Positions 5,674-59,146 of a stretch of 64,000 bases of DNA are shown here, in pieces. The first letter of the stretch is position 1, and each line of letters opens with the position of its first letter. Where the stretch lies: the NCBI GenBank assembly GCA_947476695.1, contig CANJRD010000003.1:186001-250000 (forward strand), in the 5' to 3' direction. A program made the position numbers and the translations under genes. The stretch comes from Rhodospirillaceae bacterium. Its GTDB lineage: Bacteria > Pseudomonadota > Alphaproteobacteria > Rhodospirillales > Rhodospirillaceae. The notes below the pieces were generated by a model. That model did not search any database and had not been told where the DNA came from. It saw only the letters and a list, made by a program, of their open reading frames with translations.

Positions 5674-5702
5674 GCAACCATATAGCTTGACGCGGCGTAT
5701 GT

Positions 5703-9240: not shown

Positions 9241-11346
9241 TCAAAACAGCTTGGAGAGGACGCAGCCAACCAGCGTCAGGAACGCGATACCACCCGCACA
9301 GACCGCACCCGCCTGACGCCCGAGCCTGAGCGCCGATTCCTGACGGTCGAACTGACCGTGTTCGAGATCGTAAATCTGTTTGTCGGCCGCATTGAACTCA
9401 GTGCGTGACCAGGAAAATCCCTCGGCGTCCTTCTGACGCTCTTCGGGATTGTCGAGATAGTTGTACAACTCGGCGAGGTTGCCTTTGCGCACGAACTTCG
9501 GGATTTCGCGCTCCAACTCGCGGCGCTTGTTGCGGTTCTGATAGCTGCTGATCACAGGCCCCATCAGGCCGCCGACCCAGCTGGTCAGGCCGTAGAGGGC
9601 CTCAGGCCCCAAACGCCACTGCACGATGGCCAACACGCTGAGCATACCGATGGTGGAACGATCGGCGCGCGCATCGTTCATGGAATCGAGCTGCATCGAG
9701 GTTCCCTTGGCATACCGAGCGCGCAGGAACGCCGCGATGTGGCGATCGACCGGCCACATCTTGGTGTTGACCGACTTGGACGCCGCATCGAGGGCGGGCA
9801 GGATCGCTTTGACCTCCATCACGTACTGATCGGCGACCATCGGGCTCATGCAGAACTGCCACTCGTTCAGTTCGTAGACGCAACGCTCGATGCCGGCGCC
9901 GGTCGACTGATCCTTCATGTAGTTCTTCAGGTCGCGGAACGTCTGTTCGTACTGCTGGTGTTCCGGCCCCGGCTTAGTTTGCGCGTTGATGAAATAACGC
10001 CACAGTTCCTTGGTGATGAAGTCGCTGAATGGCTTAAGCTTATCTTTCCGCATCATGGCGATGGCCAATGCCGGCCCGAAGCCGTCGACGTTGACGCGGA
10101 AGTTGCGCAAGCGTACCGGCGCGCGTGGATCGAGGATCATCAAGATCCGACTGATGATCAGATCATCGGCCTCGCCCTTCTGGGCCCCAGGCAAATCGTA
10201 GGAGGTCTTGATCGCCGAGGAGATCGCGTTCGCCATTTCGTTGAAGTCGAACTGACGGCGCAGCCATATCTCCAACGTGCCGTCGGCGATGATGCTCATC
10301 GCCTTGTCCCAATTGGTATAGAGCGCGTAGCTGAGCGGTCGCAGCGAATTGAATTCCTGGTCCCCGATGCGCAAGGCGCGACGGGCCTGCTTTTCCGCCT
10401 TCGCTTGAATCGGCGTCAGGCGTTTACCGGCGAGCCATAGATCGACGTTCTCGGTCTTCCAGCGCTGCTCGGGATCGTCCGCGAGTAGACCGCGCAAACA
10501 CTCCAGCACCGTCATCGGCGGACGTTCGTCGTCGACAAGCGTGGCGTAGGAACCCTGCCCGACTTTCCGGCGCAAGATTTCGTCGTCGGGCACACCCTGG
10601 AGGGTGTCGCGCCCAATCGACAGCATGAGCAGCGTCGCGCCGAAGGCATACAGATCGTCGTAGACGTTGCCCGCACCGCGCCCAGACGGCATCGACATAC
10701 CGGACTCGATTGGCTCGATCGCGACTGGCTGATCGTGCGCCGGCGAGGACGTGAGGCAGTCGCCCAGCACGATGTTGGTGCGCGCTTCGTCCATGTAATA
10801 AAGGTTGTCCGGCCGGATCGCGCGATGGGTGATGCCCCTCAACGCAAGTTCGTTCAACGCATCGGTCAGCGGCTTGATGATATTCTTCGCGAACAGATGG
10901 TCGGGCACACGCCGGAACACGCCGCCCTTCAAATCCATCACGCGTCCGCCCATGGGGCGGTGATAGATGACGATCACGCACTTGCGCTCGGCCGGCGGCC
11001 ATTCGGCCACGCCCCAGTCGACGAGGTGCAAAACGTGAGCGATCTCGAGGCCTTTAAGCACGCGCATCACGCTAATGCGCGGCGTCATGTCCGGACGCAC
11101 GACGAGCGCGTACATCGCGCGCCCTTCCTGCTTACGGTCAGTCACTTCGTATGCCGTAGCGTTCGGCATATCGAGCGACGGGATCGGGCGGTCGCAGTAA
11201 ATGGTGTAACGGTCGCGGACGACGATAAAGCTACCGCTCGGCCGCGGCGCAGCGGCCGGGCCCGGAGGCGGTGTCGTTGCCTGCGCGGGTTGCGGCGCCG
11301 GCAGGTCTCGCAACTGCGTAGCCGGTTCGGCCATCGCGTTGGTCAC
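9241..11346 (-). CDS. Membrane-anchored protein-kinase-like protein (predicted pseudokinase)
   Basis: A 701-residue protein with a Pro/Ala-rich N-terminus (1-40), a Ser/Thr-kinase-like domain (about 45-315) and a long helical region of unknown type. It ends in a C-terminal TM helix (about 678-698). The catalytic loop reads HRAIRPDN (174-181): the base Asp of HRD is Ala176, while the downstream Asn is kept. The VAIK-type Lys is not evident in ALVVRPD, and DFG is replaced by GDC (195-197). The structural Asp of helix F (Asp231 in DLYAFG) is intact, so the fold is probably preserved. It is likely a binding or scaffold module. It precedes the membrane gene 8709-9233 by seven bases. Confidence 0.72.
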   Translation of the reverse strand: MTNAMAEPATQLRDLPAPQPAQATTPPPGPAAAPRPSGSFIVVRDRYTIYCDRPIPSLDMPNATAYEVTDRKQEGRAMYALVVRPDMTPRISVMRVLKGLEIAHVLHLVDWGVAEWPPAERKCVIVIYHRPMGGRVMDLKGGVFRRVPDHLFAKNIIKPLTDALNELALRGITHRAIRPDNLYYMDEARTNIVLGDCLTSSPAHDQPVAIEPIESGMSMPSGRGAGNVYDDLYAFGATLLMLSIGRDTLQGVPDDEILRRKVGQGSYATLVDDERPPMTVLECLRGLLADDPEQRWKTENVDLWLAGKRLTPIQAKAEKQARRALRIGDQEFNSLRPLSYALYTNWDKAMSIIADGTLEIWLRRQFDFNEMANAISSAIKTSYDLPGAQKGEADDLIISRILMILDPRAPVRLRNFRVNVDGFGPALAIAMMRKDKLKPFSDFITKELWRYFINAQTKPGPEHQQYEQTFRDLKNYMKDQSTGAGIERCVYELNEWQFCMSPMVADQYVMEVKAILPALDAASKSVNTKMWPVDRHIAAFLRARYAKGTSMQLDSMNDARADRSTIGMLSVLAIVQWRLGPEALYGLTSWVGGLMGPVISSYQNRNKRRELEREIPKFVRKGNLAELYNYLDNPEERQKDAEGFSWSRTEFNAADKQIYDLEHGQFDRQESALRLGRQAGAVCAGGIAFLTLVGCVLSKLF

Positions 11347-44791: not shown

Positions 44792-44969
44792 CCGCTGGCC
44801 GTATCGGGGGCATTTTCACAAAGGCGTGCTCGCGTAAGCGGTTGTGCGCCCCGACTCCGATAAGGTAGGGTCTCCGCCTGGGGATAAGAAAAATAGGCGC
44901 GACCCAAAGCGTCGAGAATTCAGGGGTTTGGCGCGAGGCTCGTTAAGGCGGGCCACGTGGAGGGAGCCG

Positions 44970-46325
44970 GTGCGAAGCATCTCACTCGAGGGGTTGGAAG
45001 CCGCAACAGGGTCAAAAAACCCTGTGCGGAGCTCGTGGCGGCGCGGTGCGTTTGGCGCTGTGCTGACAAGTGTGCTTGCGCTCGCCGTTCCTGCCTTGGC
45101 CCAGACCAATAACGTGATTGTCGATTTCGGCGTACTCGATCCGCCGGCCAGTGCCACGTTGCTTGTGCCGCCAGCCGGCGTGCAGCCGCCGACCGCCAAC
45201 CGCGTCGTCCTGAAGCCGCCCAAGGGCACACCGCGCTATGTTCCGGGCAAAGTCCGCCCGATCAAATTGATGCTGAACACCGGCACCACGGTGAATGGCG
45301 AAGCCTGCACCTGCCCGCCGAAAACGGTGCGTCGCAGCGTGCGCCGTCCGGCCGCGAAGCCGAAAGTGACGCAGGCGAAGGCCGTTGCGCCGGCCGCGAC
45401 CACAGCACCGAACACGGCGCCGACCATCGCACCGACACCGGCCCCCGCTCCCACGCCGGCCCCGCCGGCTGCCGCGAAGACCGCGCCCACCCCGGCGCCG
45501 CCCGCAAAGCCCGCACCTGCCGCGAAGCCGACGCCGGCCGTAACACCCGCACCGGCACCTGCACCTATTCAAAAGGCCGAAGCGCCGAACGCTGAAGCGC
45601 AGAAGGCTGAAGCGCAGAAGGCTCAAACGCCGCCGCCAGCACCGCCGAAGGCCGCGACTGCGCCTGCAGCACCTGCTCCGACGCCTGCTCCGGCACCCGT
45701 TGCGGCCGCTGCGAAGCCGACGACACCGCCAGTCGCTGCGACGCCTGCGGCTCCGCCCGCGCCGAAGCCACCACAACAGACCGCCAACGCGACGCCGACG
45801 CCAGCCGTCCCGCCGCCGCAAGCCTTGACGCCGCCGGCGCGCACCGCACCGTCTCCCGTTGCGCCGCCCGCGCCCGCACCGCAAGCGGCCGCACCGGCCC
45901 CAAAACCAGCAGCGCCCGCAACCGCACCGGCCGTCGTGCCGCCGCCGGCGACACCGTCCGAACAGCAGGTCGCCGCCGTGCCGCCCGCGCCGCAGCCTCC
46001 CGCCGCGAAGAACGATCCGCTCAGCATCGTCTACACCGCCGCCGGCAGTCAGATTCCGGTCGAAGCCGGCCCAAGCATCAAAGACCTGACGCAAAAGCTG
46101 GCAAGCGATGCCTCCTTACGGGTGCAGTTGCTCTCGTACGCGTCCGATCCTGAAAAGAATGTAAGCCGCGCACGCCGCCTTTCACTCGAACGCGCTGTGG
46201 CCGTCCGTAAAATGCTGATCGATAATGGGCTCGACTCAACGCGTATCGAAGTACGCGCCCTCGGCGATCAGAATCCCGGCGGCGCCCCGGATCGGGTGGA
46301 TGTTGTTCTCTCGGCGCGACGCTAA
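44970..46325 (+). CDS. OmpA-family protein with long Pro/Ala-rich linker
   Basis: A 451-residue exported protein. A GTG start at 44970 with GGAGGG upstream gives a somewhat long N-terminus and signal peptide (hydrophobic stretch about 26-45, ending PALAQ). A folded region (about 46-115, with CTCPPK) precedes an extreme Pro/Ala/Lys linker (about 125-345). A C-terminal OmpA-like domain (about 350-451) contains SLERAVAVRKMLIDNGL and RIEVRALGDQ. The first gene of a three-gene group with the MotA- and MotB-like genes; it may span the periplasm to peptidoglycan. Confidence 0.8.
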   Translation: MRSISLEGLEAATGSKNPVRSSWRRGAFGAVLTSVLALAVPALAQTNNVIVDFGVLDPPASATLLVPPAGVQPPTANRVVLKPPKGTPRYVPGKVRPIKLMLNTGTTVNGEACTCPPKTVRRSVRRPAAKPKVTQAKAVAPAATTAPNTAPTIAPTPAPAPTPAPPAAAKTAPTPAPPAKPAPAAKPTPAVTPAPAPAPIQKAEAPNAEAQKAEAQKAQTPPPAPPKAATAPAAPAPTPAPAPVAAAAKPTTPPVAATPAAPPAPKPPQQTANATPTPAVPPPQALTPPARTAPSPVAPPAPAPQAAAPAPKPAAPATAPAVVPPPATPSEQQVAAVPPAPQPPAAKNDPLSIVYTAAGSQIPVEAGPSIKDLTQKLASDASLRVQLLSYASDPEKNVSRARRLSLERAVAVRKMLIDNGLDSTRIEVRALGDQNPGGAPDRVDVVLSARR

Positions 46326-46346: not shown

Positions 46347-47555
46347 GTGCGCAAGGTGAGCGATACCTCTCGCTACATCACGCGTATGGTGTTGTTCCTG
46401 GTGGTCGTCGGCGCCTGCTGCGCCTTCTTGATCAACACGCTCCTTCCGATCTTCCTGGTCAATCCGGCCGTGAACGGCGTGATCTTCGCCGTCATCCTGT
46501 TCGGCACGATCCTTAACTTCCGCCAGGTGATCCTGCTCGCCCCCGAAGCACGCTGGGTCGAGCGCCTGCGCGAAAGTGCGAGCGAGACCGCCGCCGCCCT
46601 TACTGAATTGCGCGCCGAAGCCGTGCAGCCGGAGCTGCGCCTGCTGTCATCGATGGCGCGGATGCTGGGCGAGAAGCGCGGACGTCTCATGTTGAGCGCG
46701 CCGGCGATGCGCACCATCCTCGACGGTATCGCCGCACGCCTCGAAGAAAGCCGCGATCTCGCGCGCTATCTCACCGGCCTTTGCATTTTCCTCGGCCTGC
46801 TCGGCACGTTCTGGGGCCTGCTCGGCACCGTGCGCGCCATCGCCGACGTCATCAACAACATGACGATGAACACGGACGATCTGTCCGTGATGTTCAACAC
46901 CCTCAAGAAAGGCCTTGAGTCGCCGCTGTCGGGCATGGGCACGGCATTCGCGTCCTCGCTGTTCGGTCTGGGCGGATCGCTGCTGCTCGGCTTCCTCGAC
47001 CTGCAAGCGTCGCAAGCGCAGAACGCTTTCTTCAACGAACTGGAAGAATGGCTGTCGAGCATCACCCGTCTGTCGTCGGGCTCGAACGAAGGCGATCAAA
47101 GTGTTTCGGTCTACACCGAAGCCCTGCTCGAACAGACCGCCGAGCGCCTGCAGGATCTGGTCACCATCATCGCGCGCAGCGAGCAGGCGCGCACCGACGC
47201 GAACCAGCAGTTCGCGGAAATGAATGGTAAGCTCGCGATCCTGGCGGACCAGATGCGCGCGGAACAGCATATATTGCTGCGCCTCGCCGAGAACCAGCGC
47301 GAGCTGACGCCGATCATTCGTCATCTGGGCGATGTGGTCGCCAAACTCGGCAATTTCGAAGGCCCGCAAAGCGGCGCGCTCGACGACGCGACGCGGGGCC
47401 ACATTCGCAGCATCGACAATCTGCTGGGCCGCCTCACGACATCCGTCGAGACCGGGCGTGACGAAACCATCCGTGACATCCGCGCCGAGATCAAACTGCT
47501 TGCGCGTACCATAGCCGGCCTTGGCGGCAACACCGGCCGCGACAGCGCGGCATAG
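46347..47555 (+). CDS. MotA/ExbB-like ion channel subunit
   Basis: A 402-residue MotA/TolQ/ExbB-family membrane protein. TM helices lie at about 13-33, 39-58, 140-165 (FLGLLGTFWGLLGTVRAIAD) and 196-221 (GMGTAFASSLFGLGGSLLLG). A cytoplasmic or helical C-terminal tail of about 170 residues follows. The pore helices match the ion-channel pattern of TolQ. It is followed after two bases by a MotB-like gene, so together they should form a proton-driven envelope motor. Not flagellar: no flagellar genes are nearby. The GTG start at 46347 is tentative. Confidence 0.82.
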   Translation: MRKVSDTSRYITRMVLFLVVVGACCAFLINTLLPIFLVNPAVNGVIFAVILFGTILNFRQVILLAPEARWVERLRESASETAAALTELRAEAVQPELRLLSSMARMLGEKRGRLMLSAPAMRTILDGIAARLEESRDLARYLTGLCIFLGLLGTFWGLLGTVRAIADVINNMTMNTDDLSVMFNTLKKGLESPLSGMGTAFASSLFGLGGSLLLGFLDLQASQAQNAFFNELEEWLSSITRLSSGSNEGDQSVSVYTEALLEQTAERLQDLVTIIARSEQARTDANQQFAEMNGKLAILADQMRAEQHILLRLAENQRELTPIIRHLGDVVAKLGNFEGPQSGALDDATRGHIRSIDNLLGRLTTSVETGRDETIRDIRAEIKLLARTIAGLGGNTGRDSAA

Positions 47556-47557
47556 CC

Positions 47558-48751
47558 ATGCCCGCATACGCCCGCCGCGCAAAGCGCACGGTAGACATCT
47601 GGCCAGGGTGGGTCGATGCGCTGTCGACGCTGCTCATCATTGTCATGTTCGTGCTGCTGGTATTTGTGCTGGGCCAGGTGTTCCTGAGCACGGCCCTCTC
47701 CGGCCGCGACAAGCAACTTGGCCAGCTGACGGGACAGCTTTCGGAACTCGCCAGCCAGTTGGCGCTTGAGAAGCAAGCGCATACGGAGCTGGAAGCGAAC
47801 ATCGCGAAGCTGACAACGGAACTCGTCGACACCAAGACGAATCTCGACGCGCTGTCGCTGCTGCAGGTCGAGACCAGCACCAAGCTCGCCGAGAAGACCG
47901 CCGAGGCCGATGCGCGCGCGGCTGAGAATGCGAAGCTTAGCCAGAACCTGACCGCAGCGACGGAATCCAACACACTCAATCAGGCGACCATCGCCAAGCA
48001 AGTGCAGGAACTCGCCCTGCTGCAGGAAAAGATCAAAGCGCTGGAAGCATTCCGTTCGCAGCTGGACAAGGAACTGGCAGAACGCACCGCCGACGTCAGC
48101 AAGGAGAAGCAGGCGTCCGTGCAGGCAGAGGCGCAAGCGGCCCTGATGAGTCAGCAGTTGCGGGACCTGCAGCAGGAACTCGACCGCCTAGCCACCAGCC
48201 TCGATGCCTCCGACAAGTTGTCGGCCGAACAGAAAGCACAAATCTCGGATCTGGGCCGCCGCATGAACCGCGCGCTGGCCGGCCGCGTGCAGGAACTTCA
48301 ACGCTACCGTTCCGAATTCTTCGGCCGGTTGCGCGATATCCTGCAGACGCGCCCCGGTGTGTCGATCGTCGGCGACCGCTTTGTGTTCCAGTCGGAAGTG
48401 CTGTTCACACCAGCATCGGCTGAACTTGGCCCCAACGGCAAAGCGCAGCTCGCCGCGTTCGCCAAAACGCTGCTCGATATCGCCAAGCAGATCCCGCCCG
48501 AGGTGAACTGGATGCTGCGCGTCGACGGTCACACCGACAACGTGCCGATCACGGGCGGCGTCTTTGCGTCCAACTGGGAGCTTTCCACCGCCCGGGCCGT
48601 CGCCGTGGTGAAGTACCTGACCACCCAGGGCGTCCCGGCAGAGCGCCTGGCGGCAGCCGGTTTTGGCGAATTCCAGCCGATCGATCCCGCAAATTCCGTC
48701 GGCGCGCGGGCCCGGAACCGCCGTATCGAACTCAAACTCGACCAGCGCTAA
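47558..48751 (+). CDS. MotB-like peptidoglycan-binding protein
   Basis: A 397-residue MotB/ZorB/OmpA-type protein. A single TM helix near 22-44 is preceded by GWVDALSTLLII with Asp20, equivalent to the proton-carrying Asp of MotB. A long coiled coil (about 50-245) and a C-terminal OmpA domain follow (about 260-397, with VDGHTDNVPITGG and NRRIELKLDQR). The coiled coil is much longer than in flagellar MotB. It is co-transcribed with the MotA-like gene. Confidence 0.85.
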   Translation: MPAYARRAKRTVDIWPGWVDALSTLLIIVMFVLLVFVLGQVFLSTALSGRDKQLGQLTGQLSELASQLALEKQAHTELEANIAKLTTELVDTKTNLDALSLLQVETSTKLAEKTAEADARAAENAKLSQNLTAATESNTLNQATIAKQVQELALLQEKIKALEAFRSQLDKELAERTADVSKEKQASVQAEAQAALMSQQLRDLQQELDRLATSLDASDKLSAEQKAQISDLGRRMNRALAGRVQELQRYRSEFFGRLRDILQTRPGVSIVGDRFVFQSEVLFTPASAELGPNGKAQLAAFAKTLLDIAKQIPPEVNWMLRVDGHTDNVPITGGVFASNWELSTARAVAVVKYLTTQGVPAERLAAAGFGEFQPIDPANSVGARARNRRIELKLDQR

Positions 48752-49302: not shown

Positions 49303-51156
49303 ATGCGCGGCATCGTTCAATACGTGGTCTATGTGCTAACCCAAGGGCAGTGGTACCTCCACGCCCGGTATCGCGGCGCTCAGCGCGTGGATGCGATCAA
49401 CGACGCCTCCAGCACCGAGAGTGACACCGGCCGCGCCACCAAGGTGGTGCGCGATACCTATTGGCCAGACGTCAACGAGAACGAAGAAGTCACCACCTAT
49501 CTCAGCCCGAAGGCACGTGCCCTTCAGGCCATGAACTCCCGACGGAAACAGACATCCCCGGTCGTCGTACAGGCCGGTCGCCCGGCCGCGCCGCTGGCGG
49601 AACGTCGGCGCGCGCAGAAGATGGTGCCGGTGCTCCGCAATGTGCGCCTGATCGTCGCGCTCGGCGTTGGTCTGTTCGTTGCTTCGGCGCTCACCGCAGC
49701 GTTGTCCGTGGCGATGCATCGCGCCGCGCTTCAGCTTGAGATCGAGCCGAGCAACAGCACGATCATTTTGACGATCGCGTACCTACTGATCTTCTCATAC
49801 GTCTTCCGCCGTACATCGCGCGCGCACTGGCGTCTGCATCAGATGGTCGCCGAGATGTGGGAGAATGCAGACAAGCCGGCGGCGCCGAAGTTCCCGCCCC
49901 GTCGCGCCATGGCGCGGGGCATGCGTCCCTCTCCGTCGGGTGCACCGTGGCAGGTGGTCGCCGAACGCAGGCCCGCACGTCGCGAAGCCGAGCCGAAGCC
50001 CGCTGCCGATCTGCTCAAGCCCTCGCAGCTGCAACCGCCGCCGTCGTTCGAGGACGAAGAGCCCGATCCGATGCCGATCCCCTCGTGGGAAAAGGCAAAG
50101 CTCGCCGAGGAACAAGCGGCCAAAGAAGCGAAAGAGGCCAAGGCCGCGAAGAAGAAGGCCGCTGCCGAGGCCGAAGCCGCAGCGGCAAAGAAAGCCGCGG
50201 ACGTCGAAAGCCGGCCGCCGGAACTTGACGACTCAGACGTTTCCTTTACGCCCGCAAATATCGCGGATGTGCCTGCGGGACTGGCGCTGGAACGCATTAT
50301 CCTCCGCCGCTTCGCGGTCGATGTCGTGATCCCCACCATCATGCGCTCGCATCGCGACGATCCGGTGACACGCCGTGGCATAGCGCTGCTTTTGTCGGGC
50401 GCCGTGCGCGGTCTTGTCGAAACCAGCCCCGTGAGCGAGGCCGGCGCGATGGCTCTACTCGCGGAAGTCTTGCGCGAGTCCGGCAGCAAGCCGGCTGTAA
50501 TCGAATCCTTCCTGGGCAACTACGAAGCCAGCATGTCGGCCGAGAACGCACAGCCTCTCCTTGAGTCCGGCCGCGCGGCCATCAAGCACTATGTCGACGG
50601 CGGCCGAGACGTTGACCGCATGATCCAACAGGCGATCTCCTTGTGGCGCTTCCCGAGCACGGCGCGCGTCCTCGCGCCGCCACCGGAATTTTATCTGTTC
50701 TCGATCGCGCGCGATGAAAGCCTGACCGACGGTGAGCCCACGGCCGGGTTGCTGCTGCAGCAGGCGATCGTTCGTGCCGCTGTTCAAGAACAGCACGGCG
50801 ACCTGGTCCCGCACGACGGTGCCGGCAGTCTGGCCCGATTCAATAATGTGAAATCCGCGTTCACTGCTGCCCGGGCTGTCCAGACACGTGTCGCCGCGGC
50901 GGCAGGACCGGGCACGGCCACGGTGGTGGTTGAAGGTCCGGTCACGGAGCCTGGGGTGCCGCGCGATACCGCCAGCGTGCTTGAGCGCGTCCGGACGCTG
51001 CTCGCGGTTACGCTCGATGGCGAAATCGTCGGCGATGCCTCGGCTCAGCGCTTACTCGGCGACGCCATGCTGCCGGCTGAAGCCATCCCCAATCGCGACG
51101 ATGCGGTGCGGATTCCGAATGCCACCGAAGCGCCCACATCAACAACCTTAAGTTGA
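49303..51156 (+). CDS. Membrane protein with predicted pseudo-cyclase domain
   Basis: A 617-residue protein. Parts in order: an N-terminal module (about 7-75) shared with the next gene; two TM helices (about 112-138 and 153-169); an acidic and Lys/Ala-rich linker (about 180-305); a helical domain (about 325-445); and a C-terminal region (about 460-595). The helical domain and C-terminal region align by eye with residues 340-445 and 470-608 of the cyclase at 51359. At the metal positions the residues are Ile468 and Ala507 rather than Asp. It is probably non-catalytic and may bind or regulate the cyclase. No named family recognised. Confidence 0.6.
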   Translation: MRGIVQYVVYVLTQGQWYLHARYRGAQRVDAINDASSTESDTGRATKVVRDTYWPDVNENEEVTTYLSPKARALQAMNSRRKQTSPVVVQAGRPAAPLAERRRAQKMVPVLRNVRLIVALGVGLFVASALTAALSVAMHRAALQLEIEPSNSTIILTIAYLLIFSYVFRRTSRAHWRLHQMVAEMWENADKPAAPKFPPRRAMARGMRPSPSGAPWQVVAERRPARREAEPKPAADLLKPSQLQPPPSFEDEEPDPMPIPSWEKAKLAEEQAAKEAKEAKAAKKKAAAEAEAAAAKKAADVESRPPELDDSDVSFTPANIADVPAGLALERIILRRFAVDVVIPTIMRSHRDDPVTRRGIALLLSGAVRGLVETSPVSEAGAMALLAEVLRESGSKPAVIESFLGNYEASMSAENAQPLLESGRAAIKHYVDGGRDVDRMIQQAISLWRFPSTARVLAPPPEFYLFSIARDESLTDGEPTAGLLLQQAIVRAAVQEQHGDLVPHDGAGSLARFNNVKSAFTAARAVQTRVAAAAGPGTATVVVEGPVTEPGVPRDTASVLERVRTLLAVTLDGEIVGDASAQRLLGDAMLPAEAIPNRDDAVRIPNATEAPTSTTLS

Positions 51157-51358
51157 TTTGTTTTGCCTCGCGGGCGACTTTATCCCCGCGCACTTAAGGC
51201 ATATTTAGCGAAAATCGGTGGAATATTAGAACGGGACCGCGGCTCCCGTGGAGCTGGCGTTTCCCAAAAACTGATCGTCGTAACGTCCGCGCAGGGGTGT
51301 GCAGATGGCAGGCGATCTCTAGAAATGTCTGGCGCGGAGCGCCGGGTCCGATCGGGTC

Positions 51359-53296
51359 ATGGCGCGCGATACCTTCGAAATCTACTACTTCCAAAACGGA
51401 CGCTGGTCGGTTCATGCAAGTTTTGAATCCGGCGAGCGCGACCTCGCGTTGGCGGAAGCGCAGAAGGTCGACAAAACGCTCGGCTACCCCGTGCGTCTCG
51501 TGCGTGAGACGCTCTATCCGGAGACGAATACTTCGGAAGAAGTCGTCTCTTGGCAAAGCCCAAAGGCCAAGCAACTCGGCGACCCGGAAAACATGTTCGG
51601 CGGCGGCCAGGGCAAAGGTCCCGCAAAGCCGCAGCAGAAGAAAAAATCCCCGCCGAAGCCGACGGCCCCCGTCGCGCCACGCCGGGCTGAGAAACCCGAG
51701 CCTAGTGCCCCCACTCCATCCGCGCCGCGGACGGCGAAGAAGCCGCCGCCGAAGCGCAAGGCGAAGGGCAAGTCCAAAGGCCTGACGCGCAAGGTTGTCA
51801 AAGTGGTCGGTGCAAGCTTGGCGATCTCGCTTGTGATCGTCATCACAGCCGGCACTCTCATCAGCCAGTTGCAGTTGGTTCCGCAGGAAGATTCCGCCGC
51901 CATCGGCGCGGGCATCTTCGTCGTGTCCTACGTCCTCAACTCGCTATACTTCCTTGGCAAAGAGTTCGACATCAAGTTTGGCTTCCGCCGCCGTCGCAAG
52001 TCCGAACAGGCTGCGGCACCACGCGCTTCCGACATGATCCGCAAGATGCAGGTCGCGTCGATTGAGGCCGCCAGCAATCAACCCGACATCGATGTGAGCG
52101 CAATGGCGCAAGCCAACATCGACGATCTGCGCGAGAACATCGAGCAAGCGGACGCCGAGGAAATCGCCGATCGCACCGGCGGGGACGAGTTCGCGACGGC
52201 CGTTCACGATCAGCCGCAAGAGCCGCCTGCCCTTGAACCCGAACCGGCAGCCGCAGCGGCGCCGGAACCTCCTAATGCCGAACGCGCGCCGCAGCCGACG
52301 GTGACTGCGCCACCGCCGCCGCCACCTCCACCGAAGCCGGCGGAAAAGAAACCCGAACCGCCGCAGGCCGACAACGAAGCCCGGCAGGGCATGATAGCCT
52401 TCGCGCGCGATGCGCTTAGCGCGGCGACACGCGAGCAGCCGCAGCTTAACGCGTTCTCGCGCTTCGGCTTGAATCTGTACGTCGCAGGCGCTTGCAATGC
52501 GATCGGTCAGGCCAAGAAGCTGCCGAAAGCCTCGCAGATCGCGATCTTGCGCGAAGGTCTGCAAGCCGCCGGCAACACGCCCGACCGCGCGGACAGCTTC
52601 ATCGGCGAGCTGGCGAGTCACGGCAAGAATCCGCGCTATGCGGCGATGATCCAAGCGGGCGGCGGCGCAATGCAGCGTCAGCTTGCGGGTCAACGTGGCG
52701 GCAGCGAAGAACTGACTGCCCTGCTCGCCGATTGGTCAAAACCGGAGAAGCGTCCGAGCGTGCCATCGGCATACACGTTCATGTTCACCGATATCGTGAA
52801 CTCGACTGCGCTCACCAGCCAACTGGGGAATGCCGGCGCGCAGCGCGTTGTGCGCGCGCATAACACCGCGGTGCGCGGCGCGATCCAGGCCTATCAGGGC
52901 CGCGAGGTAAAACACACCGGCGACGGCATCATGGCGACGTTCCCCTCGCCTATCGCTGCGGTGCAGGCATCGATCCGCGCGCAGAAGGAACTCGCCGCGC
53001 ATAACGCAGCCAATCCGGCGACCGCGTTCACCATCCGCATTGGCATCAATATCGGCGAAGCGGTCGAAGAGGATAACGATTTCTTTGGCGCCGCGGTGCA
53101 AATGACCGCGCGTGTGTGCAGCGTCTGCACACCAGCCAATGCCTGGGTCACGCGCGCGATTGTCGATGCGTGCAAAGGACAGCGGGTCGGATTCATCCCG
53201 CGTGGTGCGTTCCAGATGAAGGGCATCCAGCAGGCACGGCCGCTGTATGAAATCGCATACACCGATGCCCATAAGAACGAGATCGCGAACCTTTAA
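51359..53296 (+). CDS. Membrane class III adenylate/guanylate cyclase
   Basis: A 645-residue protein. It has the shared N-terminal module (about 6-74), a basic Lys/Pro linker, two TM helices (about 147-170 and 180-199), an acidic and Pro-rich linker (280-340), a helical domain (about 340-445) and a C-terminal class III cyclase domain (about 470-608). Metal Asp478 (FTDIVNST) and Asp522 (HTGDGIM), Lys518 and Arg585 are present. The usual Asn before this Arg is Gln581. ATG 51359 starts within a poor RBS context. The 201-base gap to the previous gene may contain its own promoter. It should make cAMP or cGMP; specificity is not determined. Confidence 0.85.
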   Translation: MARDTFEIYYFQNGRWSVHASFESGERDLALAEAQKVDKTLGYPVRLVRETLYPETNTSEEVVSWQSPKAKQLGDPENMFGGGQGKGPAKPQQKKKSPPKPTAPVAPRRAEKPEPSAPTPSAPRTAKKPPPKRKAKGKSKGLTRKVVKVVGASLAISLVIVITAGTLISQLQLVPQEDSAAIGAGIFVVSYVLNSLYFLGKEFDIKFGFRRRRKSEQAAAPRASDMIRKMQVASIEAASNQPDIDVSAMAQANIDDLRENIEQADAEEIADRTGGDEFATAVHDQPQEPPALEPEPAAAAAPEPPNAERAPQPTVTAPPPPPPPPKPAEKKPEPPQADNEARQGMIAFARDALSAATREQPQLNAFSRFGLNLYVAGACNAIGQAKKLPKASQIAILREGLQAAGNTPDRADSFIGELASHGKNPRYAAMIQAGGGAMQRQLAGQRGGSEELTALLADWSKPEKRPSVPSAYTFMFTDIVNSTALTSQLGNAGAQRVVRAHNTAVRGAIQAYQGREVKHTGDGIMATFPSPIAAVQASIRAQKELAAHNAANPATAFTIRIGINIGEAVEEDNDFFGAAVQMTARVCSVCTPANAWVTRAIVDACKGQRVGFIPRGAFQMKGIQQARPLYEIAYTDAHKNEIANL

Positions 53297-55352: not shown

Positions 55353-55439
55353 GGCGCGTTATCCTTGGGTCCTGTGCTGGACGGCAACTCGATTCAAGCC
55401 CTATACACCAGCGCTGCGGTTTCGGAGAACCCCTTCAAG

Positions 55440-56435
55440 ATGACCATCCCGTCCCAGATGCGCTGCGTCGAGATCAGCAAGCCGGGTGGTCCCGAAGTCC
55501 TCGTTCCCGCGGAACGCCCAGTACCCTATCCCCAAGCCGGCGAAGTGCTGATCGCCGTGCGCGCCGCGGGCGTCAATCGGCCGGACGTGGTTCAGCGCCA
55601 GGGCCTTTACCCGGCGCCGCCGGGCGCCTCCGACATTCCGGGCCTCGAGGTCGCAGGCGATGTGGTGGCCGTGGGTGAAGGCGTCACCTCCCCAGCCATC
55701 GGCGAGCGCGTCTGCGCGCTGATCGCCGGCGGCGGTTATGCGGAATACGCGACTGCCCCTGCCAATTGCTGTCTCCCGATCCCGCAGAGCTTCGCTTACG
55801 TCGATGCGGCGGCGATACCCGAGACGTTCTTCACGGTCTGGCACAACGTCTTCGAGCGCGGCGCGCTCAAGTCCGGCGAGACCCTACTCGTGCACGGCGG
55901 CACCAGCGGCATCGGCACCACGGCCATCCAACTTGCCAAAGTCTTTGGCGCGAAAGTTATCGCCACCGCTGGCAGCGAGGAAAAGTGCGAAGCCTGCCGC
56001 GTGCTCGGCGCGGATCTCGCCATCGATTACAAGACCACGGACTTCGTGAATGCGATCAAGGACAGCCCCGCCAAGGGCGTCGATGTCGTGCTGGACATGG
56101 TCGGCGGCGAGTACACCGCCAAGAATATCGCCGTCCTGAAGGCCGACGGACGTTTGGTCAACATCGCTTTCCTCAATGGCTCGAAGGTCAACGTCGATCT
56201 GATGCCGGTCATGCTCAAGCGGCTGACCCTGACCGGATCGACCCTGCGGGCGCGCGACCTTTCTTTTAAGGGCGCGATTGCCGCCGCCTTGCGCGCCAAG
56301 GTCTGGCCGATGCTGTCCATGGGACTGATCGAGCCCGTGATCGATTCAACCTTCCCGCTCGCTTCGGCCGCGGAGGCCCATACCTTGATGGAAAGCAGCG
56401 GTCACATCGGCAAAATCGTCCTGACCACGCCCTAA
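55440..56435 (+). CDS. NAD(P)H quinone oxidoreductase (PIG3 type)
   Basis: A 331-residue zinc-independent MDR oxidoreductase. The Rossmann motif is HGGTSGIGTTAIQLAK near 152, preceded by AIPETFFTVWHNVF. It reduces quinones or enones with NADPH. ATG 55440 with GGAGA upstream is preferred over 55365, which would extend into the divergent gene's promoter. Confidence 0.9.
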   Translation: MTIPSQMRCVEISKPGGPEVLVPAERPVPYPQAGEVLIAVRAAGVNRPDVVQRQGLYPAPPGASDIPGLEVAGDVVAVGEGVTSPAIGERVCALIAGGGYAEYATAPANCCLPIPQSFAYVDAAAIPETFFTVWHNVFERGALKSGETLLVHGGTSGIGTTAIQLAKVFGAKVIATAGSEEKCEACRVLGADLAIDYKTTDFVNAIKDSPAKGVDVVLDMVGGEYTAKNIAVLKADGRLVNIAFLNGSKVNVDLMPVMLKRLTLTGSTLRARDLSFKGAIAAALRAKVWPMLSMGLIEPVIDSTFPLASAAEAHTLMESSGHIGKIVLTTP

Positions 56436-56631: not shown

Positions 56632-57339
56632 ATGGCGTTGCCATTAATGCCCAAGGCGACAGCCGTTTGGCTGGTGGAGAACACCTCGTTGTCGTTCGAG
56701 CAGGTTGCGGCCTTCACAGGCATGCATGAACTCGAAATCCAGGCGATTGCCGACGGCGAAGTCGCGATCGGGATCGTCGGCGTCAATCCGATCACCAGCG
56801 GACAGCTGATGCAGGAAGACCTCGACCGCGCGCAGGCCAATCCGGCGGTCATGCTGAAGATGCACAAGTCCGACATCCCGCTGCCGAAGGCGCGGGCGAA
56901 AGGCGCGCGCTATACGCCGGTGTCGAAGCGTCAGGATCGCCCCGATGCGATCTCGTGGCTGATCAAGCATCACCCGGAACTGACTGATGCGCAGATCGCG
57001 CGTCTGATCGGCACCACGAAGCCGACGATCGCCAGCGTGCGCGACCGTACGCACTGGAATGCGACGAACATCAAGCCGCAGAACCCGGTGACATTGGGTC
57101 TCTGCTCCGAGCCCGATCTTGAGAAGGCCGTCATCATCGCGTCGCGCCGCGTGAAAGCGCGCGAAAAGGCAAAGGAACGTGCCGAACGCGCCGCTGCACG
57201 TGCAACTGCGGCTGCCAATGCGCCGACACCGACCGCGGACGATCCGATGATCGATGCGGCCGACGACGAAATGCCGGAAGACGCTGCGGCGCCCTCCGCG
57301 CCGTCGAACGAAAACGGTGGCGCACCGCCTGCCCCGTAG
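56632..57339 (+). CDS. trcR: Cell-cycle transcriptional regulator TrcR (DUF1013)
   Basis: A 235-residue DUF1013 protein starting MALPLMPKATAVWLVENTSL. Described in Alphaproteobacteria as a cell-cycle transcription factor (TrcR) associated with RNA polymerase at sigma-70 promoters. Helical N-domain with an HTH-like segment (TDAQIARLIGTTKPTIASV, about 103-121) and an Ala/Glu-rich tail. AAAGGA RBS. A strong terminator follows the stop. Confidence 0.9.
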   Translation: MALPLMPKATAVWLVENTSLSFEQVAAFTGMHELEIQAIADGEVAIGIVGVNPITSGQLMQEDLDRAQANPAVMLKMHKSDIPLPKARAKGARYTPVSKRQDRPDAISWLIKHHPELTDAQIARLIGTTKPTIASVRDRTHWNATNIKPQNPVTLGLCSEPDLEKAVIIASRRVKAREKAKERAERAAARATAAANAPTPTADDPMIDAADDEMPEDAAAPSAPSNENGGAPPAP

Positions 57340-58280: not shown

Positions 58281-59051
58281 CTATCCGACGGCCTGCGGTC
58301 CCCGCGTCAGATGATCGACGCGCGCGATCGCCAGCAAGGGACTTTCCGCGCGGCTGATCGTCGCGCCCGCGACCTTCATCGCGAGCGCCATGCTGAGACC
58401 GGCGACATCGTAGCCCGTGGCGCTCAGTTGATCGCGGATCTGATGGCACAGCACAGGGAGTTCCGCGTCGAGCGGCGTCGAAGCCAGCGCGACGAGCGTC
58501 AAACCACCGATCGCGCCGAGGCATGCCATAGGCACTGTCGTCGCTGCCGGTCCTTCGACCGGCCATGTCAGGTGCACATCGCGTAACCGTTGGCCGACAT
58601 CCGCAAGCACCGTGTTGGCGGCCAACACGCCGCTGCTCCGGCGGATATCCTCGTACGTCTCCACGTGAATGAGGAACAGGCTCCACGCCAGTCCCGGCCC
58701 TGCCGGGGTCCCCGTCAACTCCGTGAAGCTCGCCAAGAATGGTTCACGGTCGAGCATCGCCGGCGCGGCACCGGCCGGCAGGCGGGTCTCGAGCCGGCGG
58801 ACTTGCGCGCGCAGGGTCGCGTTCTCGGCGACCAATCCCGCAAGCGCAGCGCGGGTCGAGTTCGTAATCTGCTCAATGGGAATGCCGATGATGGTGACGC
58901 TGTCATCGAACGGGCGCGCGCGGTCGGCTTCCTGATAGGTTTCAGCAGCACGACGCGCTGCGGGGCTACGCCCATCGCCGCCACCCTGTCTGCGACGGTC
59001 AGTTCGCGTATCGACCCCCGGCAAGCCGGTTGGCTGAGGAATGTCTGGCAT
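58281..59051 (-). CDS. Degenerate GGDEF-like protein
   Basis: A protein of about 256 residues. A Lys/Arg-rich N-terminus and short coiled coil (about 70-95) precede a GGDEF-like fold (about 100-255): FLASFTELTG, HVETYEDIRRSSG and ANTVLADVGQRLRD match diguanylate-cyclase helices. The active loop GGDEF is replaced by GGLTL, so it cannot make c-di-GMP and may be a binding domain. The start could be 59069 (six residues longer). Confidence 0.65.
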   Translation of the reverse strand: MPDIPQPTGLPGVDTRTDRRRQGGGDGRSPAARRAAETYQEADRARPFDDSVTIIGIPIEQITNSTRAALAGLVAENATLRAQVRRLETRLPAGAAPAMLDREPFLASFTELTGTPAGPGLAWSLFLIHVETYEDIRRSSGVLAANTVLADVGQRLRDVHLTWPVEGPAATTVPMACLGAIGGLTLVALASTPLDAELPVLCHQIRDQLSATGYDVAGLSMALAMKVAGATISRAESPLLAIARVDHLTRGPQAVG

Positions 59052-59146
59052 GGAATGCGCTGCCTGCATGGATCACGGACCTAGGTTTATTGGGCCGGGC
59101 CTCGCGGCTTGAAGCTGAACTCTATCGCCAGGGCGTTGTTAAAAAG

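Follow-up and report, generated by a model that had tools for sequence, protein, structure and literature searches.

Why would a bacterium carry, next to a gene for what looks like a complete class III nucleotide cyclase, a sister gene that lacks the catalytic residues? We addressed this question in a stretch of 64,000 nucleotides from a Rhodospirillaceae bacterium (assembly GCA_947476695.1, contig CANJRD010000003.1, positions 186,001 to 250,000), hereafter the window, in which gene A (49303..51156, 617 amino acids) and gene B (51359..53296, 645 amino acids) are adjacent on the forward strand. Both open reading frames (ORFs) were found where an earlier inspection of the letters, the sequence-only reading, had placed them. 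The reading that we favour, and to which we give about an even chance, is that B is a live cyclase and A a paralogue without catalysis, selected as a regulatory partner of B that lowers or gates its output of cyclic AMP (cAMP).

The relationship between the two proteins is clear at several levels. BLASTP aligned A337-542 with B348-559 (E 2e-12), and the comparison of an alignment of A orthologs with one of B orthologs in hhalign gave a probability of 100 and an E-value of 4.7e-59. The A alignment held 14 of 17 A sequences (L061, frameshifted, L068, cut by a contig end, and L069, interrupted, were dropped) and the B alignment 12 of 18 B sequences, six incomplete or interrupted ones being dropped. 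The sequence-only reading had described four segments common to A and B in the same order, and each of them does match its counterpart when profiles are compared: the N-terminal module (N-module) with E 2.4e-29, the membrane hairpin with E 4.4e-6, the helical domain with E 7.2e-18 and the cyclase part alone with E 1.6e-18, while three column-shuffled control runs per segment all gave E 0.08 or worse. The same reading had depended on a resemblance between the C-terminal halves, and their comparison as hidden Markov model profiles yielded E 1.3e-31. That A could be an unrelated protein was ruled out by these profile matches to B, by a structural match and by the matches of an A-only profile to solved cyclases, both of which are given below.

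In the structure models of A and B the N-module is an alpha/beta unit (A residues 3-78, 49309..49536, with blocks of predicted local distance difference test, pLDDT, of 86-96; B residues 2-77, 51362..51589). It is followed by two long membrane helices, which in A span residues 109-140 and 149-190 with a turn of 8 residues (49627..49872) and in B residues 139-171 and 176-203 with a turn of 4 (51773..51967), then by a long low-confidence linker, a helical domain (A 325-457, 50275..50673; B 336-462, 52364..52744) and the cyclase part, degenerate in A (458-590, 50674..51072) and intact in B (466-645, 52754..53293). Basic residues flank both membrane ends in the two sequences. Under the positive-inside rule basic flanks indicate the cytosolic side, so both the N-module and the cyclase part are expected to lie in the cytosol, and, as modelled, the hairpin turns are too short to hold an external sensor domain. 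Within A or B the N-module had no Pfam match and no sequence match in the PDB, a fold search of the module alone not having been made. A 573-residue protein encoded elsewhere in the window's genome (G000:C1, L156:3276-4997, reverse strand) has no Pfam domain and matches the N-module weakly (E 0.0013), which suggests that the module may also be used outside cyclases.

The cyclase domain of B matches Pfam Guanylate_cyc (E 1.6e-12), and its model superimposes on Ma1120 (4wp8_B; Z 25.5, 165 aligned residues, root-mean-square deviation (rmsd) 1.7) and on Rv1900c (1ybt; Z 23.4), the same two proteins that are its best sequence matches among solved structures. The likeness covers B464-638, and the three preceding segments (N-module, hairpin, helical domain) fall outside it. 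The metal-binding Asp residues that the sequence-only reading had assigned to positions 478 (52790..52792) and 522 (52922..52924) are both Asp. Neither they nor Lys518, Asp574 and the transition-state Arg585 (53111..53113) vary in any of the 18 B sequences or of the 23 single-copy homologues counted. Two further homologues outside these 23 (L115 and L120) carry the FTD, GDG and AR motifs. The fold, the two metal Asp and the transition-state Arg (the residues in 18/18) place B in class III. The helix 4 Asn is absent from B, where 17 of the 18 sequences have Gln and one has Arg; this is not decisive, since the solved Rv1900c and Ma1120 also lack it (His and Ala, respectively, in an alignment read by eye). 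Lys518 and Asp574 presumably point to adenine as the base. We therefore predict, from its sequence, that B is a membrane-anchored class III adenylate cyclase, making cAMP from ATP, and one that should not need A for its activity, because the single-copy homologues keep the full set of residues. These homologues, from other genera, share the architecture of A and B and often their neighbours (a MotB-like gene stands upstream at 17 of the 24 loci of B-like genes outside the pair-bearing genera, L097-L120, some of the remaining 7 beginning at a contig edge), but they consist of one gene where the window has an active/inactive pair.

A retains the fold and has lost the residues of the catalytic site. 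A scan of 14 A sequences gave no match to Guanylate_cyc up to E 0.1. Sequence comparison of the A-only profile with solved structures did find cyclases (3mr7, E 1.4e-11), and a model built from 14 A-type sequences alone resembles class III cyclases, the best match being 1ybt_A (Z 15.0, 148 aligned residues, rmsd 3.6), with Foldseek template-modelling scores to the target of about 0.5-0.65 for single-domain cyclase entries. The last two strands of B have no counterpart in the A model. The class III fold and sequence relation are thus present in A; the metal Asp pair, the transition-state Arg and a C2-like Asn/Arg are all missing. At the first metal site the 17 A sequences have Glu (10), Asn (3), Ser (1), Asp (1, in L071) or a gap (2), so that Asp is present in 1 of 15 readable cases, and in a wider set Glu occupies this site in 18 of 25 sequences (10/17, 5/5 and 3/3). 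The second site holds Asp in none of 25 readable sequences (16 + 5 + 3 + 1) and Lys, Arg or His in 17 of them. The transition-state Arg, at the position of Arg585, is found in 0 of 16 readable A sequences, the placement of this column in A helix 4 being less certain, and the helix 4 position has Asn in 0 of 16. At the position of Lys518 there is Lys or Arg in 13 of 16 readable sequences (9 Lys, 4 Arg) and Pro in the window's own A. The ARF motif is not invariant in A, as it differs in three further A sequences and in a fragment from genome G009.

The sequence-only reading had reported Ile468 (50704..50706) and Ala507 (50821..50823) in place of the two metal Asp. This holds for the A of the window but not for A in general: Ile/Ala is the state of the window's genus, also seen in L061, and the commoner state is Glu with a basic residue. 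Eleven A sequences, read by eye, have such a Glu/basic pair, which could, as a guess, form a salt bridge without metal. By residue states, then, the proposed active/inactive pair is borne out, with B as an active-looking cyclase and A as a conserved inactive paralogue. The same reading had raised the possibility of a heterodimer with one sensing and one catalysing half; a heterodimer with A taking part in catalysis is unlikely, for reasons given below.

In a tree computed from the non-cyclase columns (16 A, 14 B and 22 single-copy rows, with columns filled in <60% of rows removed and with second-locus and interrupted rows left out, as well as some near relatives such as L098 and L112), A forms one clade (100/99) and so does B (100/100), and the two subtrees are alike in setting the g2 genomes apart from the remainder. 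Since A forms one clade, at a place that single-copy relatives of B occupy as well, it most likely arose by a single tandem duplication within one family of Rhodospirillaceae, most of them uncultured. We found 26 distinct A loci (18 in a survey of 98 genomes, 5 on named contigs and 3 in a wider search of the order), and B follows A at all 26, the contig ending inside B in G044 and L136. A was thus never found without B, whereas a lone A in most genomes would have spoken against the sequence-only reading. In G009 A survives as a 3′ fragment, to which the A profile gives 125.9 bits and the B profile 38.0. Across 297 genomes of the order the A profile has matches of at least 348 bits in 20, all of family f1, and the other matches listed reach at most 340 bits; the lowest-scoring A is the frameshifted one of G001, followed by one at 525 bits. 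This listing comprises matches at E 1e-60 or better, in 57 genomes, the A-bearing G009, G034 and G056 not being among them. The order-wide search also returned B only, at a contig start, in G300. Leaving aside the named contigs, the A loci of surveyed genomes belong to genera g1, g2, g6, g8, g17 and g19 of family f1, and the A-bearing contigs are labelled mostly as Rhodospirillaceae or as uncultured bacteria of other names, the Marinimicrobia label on some of them being evidently wrong.

Six genomes of pair-bearing genera are without a complete pair. In G026 the pair region is broken by contig ends, and in the other five B is truncated, decayed or absent along with A: G043 is missing A and the N-module of B, with the cyclase part of B intact; what is left of B is a remnant broken by stops in G025 and no more than the final 30 residues in G048; and neither gene was found in G047 and G018, whose whole genomes were searched, a cyclase fragment on another contig of G018 being of the second-locus kind described below and not B. 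As G025, G043 and G047 belong to one genus, the losses may represent about three events rather than five. A small ORF stands at L073:7530-7760 in G043, where A and the N-module of B are missing, and we take its product to resemble ribosomal protein L31. The A frame is broken by a frameshift in G001 and by one stop in G035, and B frames are interrupted in G035, G039, G046 and G056. Since frames of B are interrupted in draft genomes as well, some of the breaks may be sequencing errors. In draft genomes, stops or frameshifts break the frame at L061, L069, L071, L076 and L080.

The segments of A have not fared equally. The mean identity to the family's single-copy homologues is 0.37 in A vs 0.36 in B for the N-module, 0.24 vs 0.20 for the hairpin, 0.24 vs 0.31 for the helical domain and 0.27 vs 0.49 for the cyclase part. 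In 11 pairs, the N-module is conserved equally within error (paired differences of -0.05 to +0.07), the hairpin is slightly closer to the single-copy homologues in A in 10, and the cyclase part is far worse in A in all 11. A better-kept N-module in A than in B, which we had considered, is not seen. Nonsynonymous and synonymous divergences (dN/dS), estimated among 13 A and 9 B sequences and given for pairs with >55% identity only, were 0.15/1.04 (G038-G052) and 0.17/1.99 (G042-G046) for the A cyclase part, and in G038-G052 a looser 0.58/1.61 for the A linker and a tighter 0.02/1.79 for the B cyclase part; with dS high, near or beyond saturation in most pairs, these ratios are rough. The values suggest that the cyclase half of A is relaxed, yet still under purifying selection. 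A appears to have kept its input side and relaxed its output side, because its N-module and hairpin are as conserved as those of B and its cyclase part far less so.

How could such a protein serve the cell? Among kinases and phosphatases, partners that are pseudoenzymes are familiar. In the scheme that we favour, which draws on the directly computed homology, lost residues, single clade of A, adjacency, domain-specific relaxation and dN < dS, a tandem duplication would have left A with the N-module, the membrane hairpin and the overall cyclase fold while catalysis was lost, and selection would then have retained A as a regulatory partner of B, a role suggested by B following wherever A was found. 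The case of G043, where A and the N-module of B are missing together and the cyclase part of B is intact, speaks for it too. The two proteins would share an oligomerisation interface. In class III enzymes one chain supplies the metal Asp of a site and the other chain its Asn, Arg and Lys (excerpt of PMC2576301), and since A has lost both sets, an A-B pair would be without any complete active site. A could thereby lower or gate the cAMP output of B, much as an engineered dominant-negative cyclase would. The precedent is ESAG4 of Trypanosoma: according to an excerpt of PMC6027212, dominant-negatives were built there by exchanging a single metal Asp and the transition-state Arg, and residues of both these kinds are missing in A. 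Like A, this is a membrane cyclase chain without a metal Asp and the transition-state Arg. The ESAG4 chain, going by the same excerpt, is man-made and over-expressed, whereas A occurs naturally, has a gene of its own and is inherited vertically. On this analogy, and because an A-B dimer has no complete site, A as a regulatory partner would probably be a built-in dominant-negative brake. A more specific version, in which A is a natural, vertically inherited dominant-negative subunit that kept the sensor and dimerisation shell, replaced Asp by Glu/basic residues in many lineages and makes A-B dimers inactive, is put forward tentatively, as something rather less than an even bet. If A does act on B in this manner, these bacteria would adjust a cAMP signal through the ratio of live to dead chains, with envelope MotA/MotB-like genes often encoded next to it, and the pair would offer a simple natural system for learning how a dead chain controls its live twin, by contrasting the cAMP made by B alone with that made by A and B together. 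Searches of open-access literature, covering titles and the beginnings of abstracts, showed no description of such a bacterial cyclase pair; the parts of A and B are ordinary, and their pairing is unusual.

The main rival to a regulatory role sees in A a stand-alone membrane sensor or scaffold, whose cyclase-like domain has turned to binding a protein or ligand and forms no cyclase-domain dimers with B. It might act, for instance, with the MotA/ExbB-like and OmpA/MotB-like proteins, whose genes stand at most 4 kb upstream at 15 of the 21 A loci having upstream DNA, and both the missing last strands of the A model and the faint likeness to the N-module (E 0.0013) of a protein of the same genome without a Pfam cyclase match would agree with it. 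However, a scaffold independent of B sits poorly with the absence of any A without B (26/26), with the state of B in five of the six genomes lacking A (three of them from one genus, G026 being the sixth) and with the constraint still seen in dN/dS on the cyclase fold of A, and we regard it as unlikely, with perhaps a quarter of the weight. Much less probable still is a catalytic heterodimer with one working site, as in mammalian C1/C2 or soluble guanylate cyclase. Those enzymes resemble A/B in having duplicated cyclase domains that differ in the catalytic residues kept, heterodimers are known within class III (excerpts of PMC2576301 and PMC6027212), and 13 of 16 readable A sequences have Lys or Arg at the Lys518 position. 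Yet the mammalian halves jointly complete a site, according to the excerpt of PMC6027212, whereas A has lost both sets: the second metal Asp (0/25), the Arg (0/16) and the Asn (0/16) are all absent, the last strands, which carry the triphosphate Lys, are missing from its model, and the window's own A has Pro in place of Lys518. Because A can supply neither set of residues, both sites of an A-B dimer would stay incomplete, and A as a C2-like half is rejected. The lost catalytic residues, the interrupted frames in G001 and G035 and the Ile/Ala state of the window's genus could also be taken for the marks of a decaying, functionless duplicate, a most improbable explanation given one A clade over six genera and 26 loci, dN well below dS even in the cyclase part, an input half as conserved as that of B, and breaks in B itself (G035, G039, G046, G056) which imply that some interruptions may be sequencing errors. 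We reject A as a pseudogene.

Several observations nevertheless weigh against A being a regulatory partner of B. The contact between the two proteins is something we infer, as are the activity of B and the inhibitory effect; the missing last strands in the A model might weaken the pairing of cyclase domains; and the roughness of the dN/dS ratios bears on the argument from selection. The genes are separated by 202 bases, and the sister relation of A and B reached 83/86 in the tree and was not starred. The link to the MotA/MotB-like genes is not fixed, because they are not near A, in the upstream DNA fetched, at 6 of 21 loci (L072, L076, L079, L121, L130 and L136). Finally, family f3 has a tandem pair in the same neighbourhood (L100:5445-9513) in which both copies have a complete catalytic set; therefore duplication here does not by itself yield a dead partner.

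Other members of the family have lost residues in different ways. Among paralogues at a second locus in several genomes, those with an N-module have the Arg in 0 of 9 readable cases, the first metal Asp in 9 of 10 and the second in 8 of 10, and those without it have the Arg in 4 of 9 and both metal Asp in 9 of 9. The N-module-bearing copies (L081-L084 and L090-L096), with metal Asp mostly kept and Arg gone, show a decay unlike that of A. One of them, a third paralogue in the window's genome (G000:C2, L094:5036-6812, reverse strand), has the N-module and cyclase parts, a frame break near 5700, intact metal Asp motifs and no transition-state Arg. With A and B in the same genome, full, half and null cyclases from one family can thus be present together in a single bacterium. 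The same genome has 10 matches to cNMP-binding (cyclic nucleotide-binding) domains and two further cyclases, which makes cAMP signalling plausible.

In the window, A is preceded on the forward strand by genes for an OmpA-domain protein (44844..46325), a MotA/ExbB-like protein (46347..47555; 21.2 bits, just under the Pfam cut-off of 22.9) and, immediately upstream, an OmpA/MotB-like protein (47558..48751); B is followed by a zinc-type alcohol dehydrogenase family gene (55365..56435, from Pfam and neighbour comparison) and a TrcR family regulator (56632..57339), also on the forward strand. The labels OmpA, MotA_ExbB and TrcR come from Pfam, and the neighbour labels efp and inositol monophosphatase are our assumption. 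The downstream alcohol-dehydrogenase family gene and TrcR recur at many of the loci compared. MotA/MotB-like genes as constant neighbours of A were ruled out by the six loci named above. A literature search on the neighbourhood of A and B found nothing. Downstream of TrcR, at 58281-59069 on the reverse strand, a gene also present in relatives encodes a protein that looks by eye like a degenerate GGDEF domain and has no Pfam match. Further away, at 9241-11346 on the reverse strand, a protein without a Pfam kinase match looks by eye like a protein kinase with HRAIRPDN for the usual HRD motif, and is perhaps a pseudokinase.

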